Below are positions 7,394 to 39,940 of a DNA stretch of 39,940 bases, piece after piece (positions within the stretch are counted from its first letter, which is position 1; every line of letters begins with the position of its first letter). The stretch comes from a virus, in IMG/VR virus record IMGVR_UViG_3300010397_000033, positions 1 to 39,940 of that record; one strand, written 5' to 3'. The notes beneath the pieces were generated by a model. That model ran no database searches. It had not been told where the DNA came from and saw only the letters and a program-made list of their open reading frames with translations. A program made the translations under genes and the position numbers.

Positions 7394-7584
7394 AGCCCGA
7401 CCCAACGAATGCAGAAAGACAGCGCCGATGGTACTGGAACCACCGAGATCATAAGTTATCCTTAACACGCGATAGGTACTATGCCGCAAAAAAGGCTGGG
7501 ATGTGCGTGAAATGTCAAACGAAACCGGCAATTCATGGTAGAGTTAGGTGTCAGGATTGTAGAGAAGCAAGGAGGAAGCCATGA
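7390..7584 (+). CDS. Small basic zinc-knuckle protein, 64 aa
   Basis: N-terminal basic helix (AERQRRWYWNHRDH) followed by CVKC (about 39-42) and CQDC (about 55-58), a four-cysteine zinc site of the kind seen in minimal HNH-associated proteins, but no H-N-H residues are visible. Very basic overall, so nucleic-acid binding is likely. ATGA overlaps on both sides. Confidence 0.6.
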   Translation: MKPDPTNAERQRRWYWNHRDHKLSLTRDRYYAAKKAGMCVKCQTKPAIHGRVRCQDCREARRKP

Positions 7585-7847
7585 GCGCCTACCGTGGTCA
7601 CCTTATTAACCAGTCACGTCACCCCAGTGACCCCGCATACGAACCACCACCGGATCCGGAGTATTTCCTTGTGGGGAAGCCTAGGGGTTGCTGTCCATGG
7701 TGTGGTAGTGGGTTGTTCACTTTCGGAGATAACCAACATGACTGCATTCGAGGTTGCATGGAATACGACCCTGATGCCAGTGTTGACGAAAACCGCATCC
7801 GCTACGCCGCTGAACGGTTGGAGGATATGCAGAATGACAGAACGTGA
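7581..7847 (+). CDS. Zinc-ribbon micro-protein, 88 aa, paralog of 3393-3662
   Basis: Contains GCCPWCGSGLF (about 36-46), a second cysteine pair CIRGC (about 55-59) and the tail ENRIRYAAERLED. The same order and spacing occur in the 89-aa product at 3393. The two genes lie 4 kb apart in one operon, pointing to an old duplication. Function unknown. Confidence 0.65.
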   Translation: MSAYRGHLINQSRHPSDPAYEPPPDPEYFLVGKPRGCCPWCGSGLFTFGDNQHDCIRGCMEYDPDASVDENRIRYAAERLEDMQNDRT

Positions 7848-7992
7848 AGAAATCAGGATCGAGATTCGTAGAGAACTAGACGCCCATAGCCAGTATCTCG
7901 GATCTGACGACCAGGCCGAGTTCATCATGAGAAGGCTTGAAGAGAAATGGCAATTCAAACGCCTAGAGGACGCTATGGGGAGTCAGCCGTGA
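7834..7992 (+). CDS. Charged helical micro-protein, 52 aa
   Basis: Not recognised. The ATG at 7834 lies within the end of the previous gene (14-bp overlap). The whole product is predicted helix: MTEREEIRIEIRRELDAHSQ, then AEFIMRRLEEKWQFKRLED. It may dimerise as a coiled coil. Confidence 0.5.
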   Translation: MTEREEIRIEIRRELDAHSQYLGSDDQAEFIMRRLEEKWQFKRLEDAMGSQP

Positions 7993-37089: not shown

Positions 37090-37530
37090 ATGAGCGAGTT
37101 TAGAACGGAACTCGATGGCGCGATAGGGAAGAAGCTCGGCGGTCTGGCCATGTTTGGCCTTGGGGCCATCATCCTGTATATCGCGTTGGCTCTGGTCTTT
37201 AGCTTCTGGCCTTTCAGCGTAGTCGCTGGAGTCGTCAGCAAAGTCACGTCGCCGAATGCAATCATCACGAACTATGAATGGTTCTATGATGAATACCATC
37301 AGATCGGCGCTTACGATTCCAATATCTCGGTCGCTGAACGCGCTTGGGAGAAGGCATCTGAGGCGTCCAAGGATCAGCGGTTCCTTGAGTATACCGGGCT
37401 CATCATGGTCCGCAATTCTCAAGCTCAGGAATACAACGCACGATCTAAGGAAATCACGAGAAACCTTTGGAAGGCTCATGACATTCCTTACCAGATCGCG
37501 CCCTACGAGCCCAAGGAGGGTTCCAAGTGA
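37090..37530 (+). CDS. Membrane-anchored hypothetical protein, 146 aa
   Basis: One long hydrophobic segment (about 17-45: GLAMFGLGAIILYIALALVF ...), then a periplasmic-looking helical domain with ITNYEWFYDEYHQIGAYDSN, a pattern shared by a family of phage and prophage membrane-anchored proteins of unknown role. AGGAGGAAG precedes the ATG. Coupled to the next gene by ATGA-type overlap (GTGA). Confidence 0.6.
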   Translation: MSEFRTELDGAIGKKLGGLAMFGLGAIILYIALALVFSFWPFSVVAGVVSKVTSPNAIITNYEWFYDEYHQIGAYDSNISVAERAWEKASEASKDQRFLEYTGLIMVRNSQAQEYNARSKEITRNLWKAHDIPYQIAPYEPKEGSK

Positions 37531-38045
37531 AGAAAGTCTTCGGGATTATTCTGGCCATTGCTTCGGTCGGTATCATGATGTTAGCCACGGATTGCACGGT
37601 ATCAAGCCGAAATCAGACGGAGGCCATTGTTGAGAATACGGCCCAGCAGGCGCTGGATACCAGCCCCGTTCCTCAGGTTACATATTTCCAGGAACGCCGC
37701 ACCATCAAGAAGTTCACGGAGTATTATGACCGCGCCGCCGTAGCTACCTACGTCTACCTGTTCACCTTCGGACAACCGGTGGGATACTTTGTCGCTGATG
37801 GCAAGCCTGCTTCAATCCGGTCCTATCTTGTACCGGAAGACAGCGTTCAATACACGGGTCACGGAAGCTATGAATTGATGCAGGCTCAGGCTCTTGACGG
37901 TACATATGGCGAAGACAACCCTGGCATTCGGTTTTTTACTGCGGCTGGTATCCCCGTCGAGTTCGGCGGGACTGGCATCAGCTATCTATACAGCCCTCAG
38001 CCGTTGGCGTTGAATGTGCCAAGGTTGTATACCGACAAGAAATAA
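37527..38045 (+). CDS. Exported or membrane-anchored protein, 172 aa
   Basis: GTG at 37527 overlaps the upstream stop. MKKVFGIILAIASVGIMMLA is an export signal; LATDC around residue 23 is an imperfect lipobox (Asp before Cys is unusual). The mature part is alpha/beta with YFQERRTIKKFTEYYDRAAV and ends NVPRLYTDKK. Similar proteins occur next to the preceding membrane protein in other phages as far as I recall; the role is unknown. The promoter of the downstream RNA lies within its last codons. Confidence 0.55.
   Translation: MKKVFGIILAIASVGIMMLATDCTVSSRNQTEAIVENTAQQALDTSPVPQVTYFQERRTIKKFTEYYDRAAVATYVYLFTFGQPVGYFVADGKPASIRSYLVPEDSVQYTGHGSYELMQAQALDGTYGEDNPGIRFFTAAGIPVEFGGTGISYLYSPQPLALNVPRLYTDKK
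38004..38033 (+). promoter_or_regulatory. Candidate promoter of the large non-coding RNA
   Basis: TTGGCG (38004-38009), 18-bp spacer, TATACC (38028-38033), each 4 of 6 to consensus. Transcription would start near 38040, just as the upstream gene ends and the structured RNA begins. Confidence 0.4.
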
Positions 38046-38639
38046 TCCCCGTCCAAACAGGGAGCGTGGCCCGCGTCGGGCTTGGTCGGCTACCGACTCA
38101 GTGAAATAGTAGCTGGTGAGCCCCCGGTCGAGGGTGGCCCTTGGGACAGAGTTCGGGAGCCGGGATGCGCTGAAAAACCTTCGGGAGCGCTTCACGTCCT
38201 GGGGAAAAGCGGGCTAGCTAGCAAGCTGTCGCCCCGTCACGATTCCTTGTGCTTCGTGGCCTGTCCTTTTTTGCTAGTAGATCAGCATGGTCCAAGCTGA
38301 TGACGCGGACCTAAGCGGGGTAAGGCCCGATACTAAAGGTTGATAGTGAACCTCGAAACTATCATCATCGAGGCGTCGGACCACACTGGAAATACAAAGA
38401 CGTCCAGCGGTATGGTGCCGTAGATGCGAAGTCAACGCCTCGACTCTATCCCCGACACTGGCAAGAAGTCCCGCGAAAACGCGGCTGAGCCTAGGGGAAG
38501 CCACCTGTTAGTGTCAAAGGTGGACGGGGAGCGATGGCCCTTGTAGACTGCGGCGGCTGACATGATCCTTGCCGGGTAATCATCGTGATTAAAACTGTCT
38601 GCGTGGTCCCGGCAATACGGGGCAACTTTGGAGGTAGCG
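38046..38639 (+). ncRNA. Large ornate structured RNA candidate, about 594 nt
   Basis: No plausible gene on either strand in 594 bases, yet many perfect stems: GCCCG/CGGGC (38069-38081); GTCGG/CCGAC (38085-38097); GCGCT/AGCGC with an inner CC-UUCG-GG (38167-38190); CACGA/TCGTG (38238-38258); ATCAGC/GCTGAT (38281-38301), whose loop GGTCC matches GGACC at 38307; TGATAGT/ACTATCA (38341-38364); TCGAGGCGT/ACGCCTCGA (38368-38376 with 38435-38443); CCGCG-AAAA-CGCGG (38471-38484); CCACCT/AGGTGG (38501-38523), whose loop AGTGTC matches GACACT at 38454; and TTGCCGGG/CCCGGCAA (38569-38615) enclosing TAATCA-TCG-TGATTA. Size, density of stems and two or three pseudoknots recall the phage-borne ROOL and GOLLD RNAs; homology cannot be judged by eye. 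It ends before the ribosome-binding site of the gene at 38640. Confidence 0.75.
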
Positions 38640-38960
38640 ATGAACATCAAGCCAGTCCCCAGTTTCGAGCCCTACAAGCTAGTCTTCTACGTCATGCTAA
38701 TCCTGACCATATGCGCGGGTATTCTCCTAGCCGTCTTCCTAGACAGCGGACAACCTGGACGAGTCGACGCACTTTCAGGCGGTCCCTACGTTGTGGAGCG
38801 GTTGGACAGCGACGTGCAGCTTTTCGCCATGCCCGATGAGGATGCCTGGACTGCTGACATCGGCTTTGCCCAACGGTACGGAACCATGGCGCAGGCCCAG
38901 CGGGGACGGGACAAGATTGGAGCGGGGCATGTCGAGCCGGTGCGCGAGGTGGTGAAATGA
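38640..38960 (+). CDS. Single-span membrane protein, 106 aa
   Basis: Hydrophobic segment at about 14-34 (FYVMLILTICAGILLAVFL) and a soluble C-terminal domain (GPYVVERLDSDVQLFAMPDE, then TMAQAQRGRDKIGAGHVEPV). Orientation suggests N-in with a periplasmic domain. GGAGG precedes the ATG at 38640. First gene after the large RNA. ATGA overlap with the next gene. Family not recognised. Confidence 0.6.
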   Translation: MNIKPVPSFEPYKLVFYVMLILTICAGILLAVFLDSGQPGRVDALSGGPYVVERLDSDVQLFAMPDEDAWTADIGFAQRYGTMAQAQRGRDKIGAGHVEPVREVVK

Positions 38961-39241: not shown

Positions 39242-39339
39242 CCCGCGCCGATGCCTGTCTAACGGTGTTCGCCATCGCTGCCCTCATCGTTACCCTGTTC
39301 ATGATCGCGGTTGACCCGACGACTAGGAGGAAGCGGTGA
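39238..39339 (+). CDS. Membrane micro-protein, 33 aa
   Basis: Translated directly from the sequence: MTRADACLTVFAIAALIVTL, then FMIAVDPTTRRKR: one hydrophobic span (about 7-25) and a basic tail. ATGA overlap upstream and GTGA overlap downstream, so the frame is firmly embedded in the operon. Size resembles small lysis or inhibitor peptides. Confidence 0.6.
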   Translation: MTRADACLTVFAIAALIVTLFMIAVDPTTRRKR

Positions 39340-39527
39340 GAAATGGAATGTGGTACCCGTCACGTAAATATCTGCACGAGAAGGGGTGCTCCATGCGCAA
39401 GGGGTGTGCCTGCGGTGGGCACAATGCCTCGAATGCCAAGAAAAGCCTGACTCATCATTCCACCATGATGAAGCTCAATCGACGGATTCTTCGTCGCTTC
39501 ATTGCCTCGATTAGAGGTCGAGTCTGA
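39336..39527 (+). CDS. Cys/His-rich basic protein, 63 aa (GTG start)
   Basis: Not recognised by family. GTG at 39336 overlaps the previous TGA and has AGGAGGAAG upstream. GCSMRKGCACGGHNASNA holds four Cys/His candidates for a metal site, followed by a His-rich THHS and a basic tail (MKLNRRILRRFIASIRGRV) that could bind nucleic acid. Its TGA overlaps the proposed CTG start of the transglycosylase. Confidence 0.6.
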   Translation: MRNGMWYPSRKYLHEKGCSMRKGCACGGHNASNAKKSLTHHSTMMKLNRRILRRFIASIRGRV

Positions 39528-39940
39528 CCCGCTCCACCATCGTTCTAGCCCTCCTGCTAATCCACTCCCCCATCTCCGCACCCGCTATGCCACCTACTAG
39601 GCACGTAGACGAACCACCGCCGAGGCTGATGGTTGTACTCAGGGCGTTGCTTGCCGCTTCCCGCGAGTTCGGCGTACCGGCCAATCTGGTGTTCAATGTG
39701 GCATGGAATGAATCGAGCCTGAAGCCAACTGCCCGGTCACGCGATCCCGACACGCACGAAGTGATAGCGCGGGGGCTCATGCAGATTTCCAAGGAATACC
39801 AGGACGAGCTGGTCAAGAAGTACCTACCAGGGATGCACCCTCGCGCGTTCGAGTGGTGGAACCCGGTGCACTCGGCACGGTTGGGATGCGCGATGCTGGC
39901 GGGGCTGACTAAGAGGTTTGGAACTTGGGCCGCTGTATGC
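39524..39940 (+). CDS. Lytic transglycosylase (SLT fold), N-terminal part; probable CTG start and signal peptide
   Basis: Cleaves the glycan strands of peptidoglycan, either during DNA entry or in lysis. With the CTG at 39524 as start, residues 1-22 form a signal peptide: TRS, a hydrophobic core IVLALLLI, then a small-residue cleavage region ISAPA. The catalytic glutamate is Glu63 in WNESS, the usual E-S motif of SLT enzymes, and GLMQ follows at 84-87. CTG is chosen because the frame is closed upstream by a TAG, a GAGGT ribosome-binding site lies at 39514-39518, and the CTG overlaps the previous gene's TGA just as the ATG/GTG starts do elsewhere in this phage. The only ATG alternative (about 39587) would lose the signal peptide. 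It is the only wall hydrolase I recognise, so it may double as endolysin. The enzyme family is well supported; the start codon is inferred. Confidence 0.85.
   Translation, partial: MTRSTIVLALLLIHSPISAPAMPPTRHVDEPPPRLMVVLRALLAASREFGVPANLVFNVAWNESSLKPTARSRDPDTHEVIARGLMQISKEYQDELVKKYLPGMHPRAFEWWNPVHSARLGCAMLAGLTKRFGTWAAVC
39818..39940. repeat. Terminal redundancy, right copy
   Basis: Exact copy of bases 1-123. It lies inside the lytic transglycosylase gene, just after the codons for the GLMQ motif region. See the left copy for the interpretation as a circular-assembly overlap. Confidence 0.95.

Follow-up and report, generated by a model that had tools for sequence, protein, structure and literature searches.

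A non-coding locus of a P22-like phage as a candidate for a large pseudoknotted RNA

Near the right end of the IMG/VR virus contig IMGVR_UViG_3300010397_000033, all 39,940 bases of which were analysed (the window), lies a non-coding locus (38046-38627, plus strand) that may encode a stand-alone, large pseudoknotted non-coding RNA on that strand. We put the probability of this reading at roughly 45%, and we regard the locus as a candidate with clear boundaries rather than as an established class; a fold cannot be proved from one sequence. The RNA as proposed would be co-transcribed with the surrounding rightward genes, and would have two parts, a core (38046-38530, about 486 nt) with its own ends paired and, beyond it, a 3' module of about 95 nt. 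The RNA would fold into a compact pseudoknotted particle that combines two adjacent H-type pseudoknots, a competing 9-bp arm and, towards the 3' end, a kissing arm. Such an RNA would most likely act in trans, as a scaffold or particle, late in infection, in line with suggestions made for ROOL and GOLLD.

Genomic setting and non-coding status

The contig is that of a P22-like phage, with genes for terminase, portal, scaffold, coat, head closure and ejection proteins; 65 of its 73 called genes run rightward, and no tRNA gene was found in its 39,940 bases. The locus is bounded by two plus-strand genes that were recognised by codon score, a 172-aa gene upstream (37527-38045) and an orphan 110-aa gene downstream (38628-38960; probable start ATG 38640 behind GGAGGT). 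A relatives search placed relatives of the upstream gene in diverse phages (48 records, among them Arthrobacter, Rhizobium, Microbacterium and Xanthomonas phages), and behind these relatives no large gap was present at any of the five loci inspected. An IMG/VR search with the proteins flanking the locus as bait gave no relatives. The stretch 37090-38045 encodes a 146-aa membrane-type protein as well as the 172-aa protein; distant relatives of both occur in unrelated phages, and in Rhizobium phage RHph_I46 they lie less than 3 kb apart. The two genes are a widespread accessory pair.

In a greedy gene call by codon score, no other non-coding interval of the record is as large as 38046-38627 (582 nt). 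Codon-usage scores fall below zero in each of its six frames and in every ORF inside it, while 30 reference genes, both neighbours included, score +0.06 to +0.34. A six-frame hmmscan of the locus against Pfam and PHROGs gave nothing credible and no protein relic, so that a decayed gene was rejected, and the earlier note's description of the locus as gene-free on either strand thus holds for this interval. We count the missing coding signal, the size of the gap and the lack of a protein relic in favor of an RNA. The second-largest gap of the record (7394-7946, 553 nt) has neither a hairpin excess nor a folding signal; 39242-39586, considered as a second gap, was rejected, as it reads as small reading frames. 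A minus-strand reading frame at 38310-38390 contains LDDDSFEVHYQPLVSG, which by eye is like the start of EAL domains; searches of Pfam, PDB and phages lent this frame no support. The peptide FEVHYQPLV on that strand, which surfaced via a 33-nt genome match, gained neither profile support nor an extension, and its likeness to EAL domains is treated as coincidence.

Predicted helices and their excess over chance

The predicted core is closed by a 10-bp stem, P1 (38046-38055 with 38521-38530, plus strand, as are all elements below), which was absent from the earlier reader's list. P1 makes a closed unit of about 485 nt that begins right after the upstream stop codon, and P is 0.002 for such a stem of 10 bp or more at the ends; P1 would shrink to 7 bp if the hairpin at 38501-38523 formed fully, since the inner 3 bp compete. 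Within this unit the hairpin scan identified two adjacent 5-bp hairpins at 38069-38097 (GCCCG-CGT-CGGGC and GTCGG-CTA-CCGAC), a hairpin at 38167-38190 (GCGCT/AGCGC) with an inner CC-UUCG-GG tetraloop visible in the sequence, and a hairpin at 38238-38258 (CACGA/TCGTG) followed by T6 at 38267-38272. A pairing search gave two complete H-type pseudoknots in tandem. Pseudoknot 1 (38281-38311) joins ATCAGC/GCTGAT with GGTCC/GGACC (38289-38293/38307-38311), and pseudoknot 2 (38341-38373) joins TGATAGT/ACTATCA with CCTCGA/TCGAGG (38351-38356/38368-38373). The second helix of pseudoknot 2 competes with the 9-bp stem 38368-38376/38435-38443, which closes an arm (38368-38443) containing a hairpin at 38386-38407. 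The sequence further allows an arm at 38450-38497 (CCCC/GGGG, GGC/GCC, CCGCG-AAAA-CGCGG), whose internal loop GACACT (38454-38459) pairs with AGTGTC (38510-38515); the latter is the loop, and thus the kissing partner, in the hairpin CCACCT/AGGTGG (38501-38523) seen in both the pairing and the hairpin scans. Outside the P1-closed unit sits the 3' module (38569-38615; pairing search and sequence), an 8-bp stem TTGCCGGG/CCCGGCAA around a 6-bp hairpin at 38577-38591, where GTAGAC at 38544 can also pair with GTCTGC at 38597. The 9-bp stem, GGTCC/GGACC, CCTCGA/TCGAGG and GACACT/AGTGTC had all been listed in the earlier note, and each is present where it had placed them.

These pairings are directly seen, and so is an excess over chance of hairpins and of loops with partners. 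Perfect local hairpins with stems of 5 bp or more number 16 in the locus, where 5.8 are expected (0 of 2000 dinucleotide shuffles), and its hairpin density is the maximum among the record's 398 windows (genome mean 5.7). Six of 12 eligible hairpin loops have a 6-nt partner within 80 nt against 0.57 expected (0 of 1000 shuffles), a count in which each H-type pseudoknot figures twice, once per side. The two H-type pseudoknots compare with 0.28 expected (P about 0.045). Hairpins, loop partners, closing stem and pseudoknots thus all count in favor of an RNA; these P values are optimistic, as the choice of statistics followed inspection of the locus. Total numbers of stems of at least 6, 7, 8 and 9 bp are not above chance (P 0.46, 0.12, 0.33 and 0.10, respectively).

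The folding energy of the whole locus is likewise not above chance (z -0.46 and -0.23), and that of the 486-nt core has a z of -1.7. A genuine ROOL, that of Ligilactobacillus salivarius plasmid pMP118, reaches a z of only -1.5 on its match strand and shows no hairpin excess, so the energy test is weak for an RNA of this sort. A nested fold with P1, the hairpins and the 9-bp arm is predicted at -182.9 kcal/mol against a free minimum of -193.0 kcal/mol, a cost of only 10 kcal/mol with no pseudoknot credited yet. This small cost and the ROOL-like z of the core also speak for an RNA. The locus is non-coding and has more structure than chance, which folding energy alone does not show. The earlier description of a large ornate RNA with pseudoknots is therefore kept as the best single-sequence reading, one that passes several shuffle tests, with the qualification that its folding energy is ordinary.

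Known RNA families and searches for homologues

None of 4227 Rfam models reached its gathering score in the record, and a search of 37900-38800 alone gave no family at E <= 10; tmRNA, RNase P and the other Rfam families are covered by these two negative results. The ROOL (RF03087) and GOLLD (RF02032) models have no match in the whole record. As a positive control the ROOL model recovered the pMP118 ROOL (130 bits, E 1e-29). Membership of the locus in either family was rejected, and the earlier suggestion of a ROOL, made from size, is not borne out by the Rfam search.

ROOL RNAs are near 570-660 nt in size and assemble into an octameric RNA cage. The locus, with a 582-nt gap and a closed core of 485-486 nt, is like ROOL in size (574 model positions vs 486-582 nt here), in its phage origin, in an elaborate predicted fold with pseudoknots and kissing loops, and in its weak folding-energy signal. 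It differs in having no model match at E <= 10, in lying in a record without tRNAs, in its GC content (58% vs 40%), and in being known here from sequence alone, not as an abundant RNA or an octamer. Pseudoknots and kissing loops are part of the ROOL fold, and closeness of ROOL to tRNA islands is frequent, not universal (PMC12286853). The locus resembles GOLLD in being phage-encoded, large and, judged by position, probably late in infection; unlike GOLLD, it has no model match and no tRNA neighbourhood and is shorter than the typical 800 nt. Group I and group II introns and HEARO (omega) RNAs are of similar size and have pseudoknotted folds, but here no Rfam model for them matches, no gene is split, and no recognised nuclease is encoded right next to the locus. 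The sequence GAGCCGGGATGCG at about 38157 is reminiscent of the start of group II domain V. The locus is most likely of the same general kind as ROOL and GOLLD, and unrelated to them by sequence or model.

No homologue of the locus was found in 50,697 phage and 72,556 plasmid records, among about 50 portal relatives (38 whole records included), or, with single-sequence covariance models, in the host genomes of ten relatives. Profile and single-sequence covariance models run over 1.45-1.58 Mb of related phages found none either, and the single-sequence models gave chance scores only over 1.45 Mb. Pseudo-peptide scans of the locus in IMG/VR and GTDB had no match, nor had a pattern search for the kissing hairpin, and 754 sampled genomes from two classes held only scattered matches of 21-36 nt, at chance level. 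A degenerate pseudoknot 1 pattern matched three related phage contigs in IMG/VR, apparently inside one coding sequence; these were rejected as homologues, since nothing else in them resembles the locus. A single close relative was identified, IMGVR_UViG_3300033076_000503 (portal 86%), and it breaks off about 1 kb ahead of the locus. In the collections searched the RNA thus stands as an orphan; these searches reach close relatives best, and a diverged homologue could be missed. With no homologue there was no covariation test and the proposed fold rests on one sequence, which, with the ordinary whole-locus energy, counts against the RNA.

Strand, expression and rival readings

We infer the plus strand for the proposed RNA; it fits the direction of the neighbouring genes, the CC-UUCG-GG loop and the loop lengths of pseudoknot 1, all of which we count in favor of the RNA. 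A-rich loops were withdrawn as evidence for this strand: the A content of unpaired bases is not above chance and does not discriminate between strands, shuffles giving the same value. A consensus scan found no promoter at the left edge of the locus, where a weak one had earlier been placed exactly upstream; the sole plus-strand promoter match falls within the locus, and shuffled sequences give on average about as many matches. No recognisable plus-strand terminator was found in the scan. The lack of a promoter and of such a terminator counts against the RNA, as does the minus strand's folding signal at 38280-38399 (z about -5), locally the strongest in the region. That signal stems from the complementary segments of both pseudoknots, which pair on this strand as well.

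The missing promoter would suit a cis-acting region, that is, a long structured leader or a processing or stability element of a late mRNA that controls 38628-38960 and does nothing in trans. The locus lies directly between two co-directional genes, its 3' module ends just ahead of the ribosome-binding site, and that site could be masked by TCCAAA/TTTGGA (38052-38057 with 38627-38632) or GCTACC/GGTAGC (38089-38094 with 38633-38638). However, 6-bp long-range pairs are expected by chance, the locus is very long for a leader, and the closing stem encloses about 485 nt, to the exclusion of the 3' module. We consider such a leader or element rather unlikely, though the best of the alternatives.

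Unlikely, too, and ranked below it, is a remnant or spacer that is non-coding and does not function as RNA, in which the hairpin excess would be a chance outlier picked from many windows. Energy and total stem counts are indeed ordinary, and conservation could not be shown. Moreover, among 31,295 windows of related phages the hairpin density of the locus is only in about the top percent, and the equally hairpin-rich windows that occur there also count against the RNA. Yet a spacer would have to be the largest gap of a tightly packed record, it has left no protein relic, and several independent statistics lie beyond chance.

Finally, it is improbable that the functional molecule is transcribed from the minus strand or is a DNA element such as a recombination or binding site (with 10-bp inverted ends and palindromes): the minus strand has the strongest local z and a terminator-like hairpin exactly at 38063-38046, and the ends form a perfect 10-bp inverted repeat, but the neighbouring genes are read from the plus strand, the right side of the locus yielded no minus-strand promoter, inspection of the sequence revealed no target-site duplication flanking the inverted ends, and terminator-like sites are fewer than the shuffle mean. 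Taken together, the cis-acting, chance-outlier and other-strand readings are as live as the large pseudoknotted RNA.

If the locus does encode a large pseudoknotted RNA, it might stand for one more class of such phage RNAs, large and ornate like ROOL and GOLLD yet unrelated to them, found in a P22-like phage away from tRNA genes, folded through tandem H-type pseudoknots with a kissing arm, and perhaps able to self-assemble into an RNA particle; we hold this more specific proposal to be doubtful, if possible. To our knowledge, very large RNAs of phages fall into very few recognised classes. An unrelated large RNA in a small podovirus without tRNAs would, if real, mean that such RNAs evolved more than once in phages, and it would offer a compact system for testing the function of very large phage RNAs.
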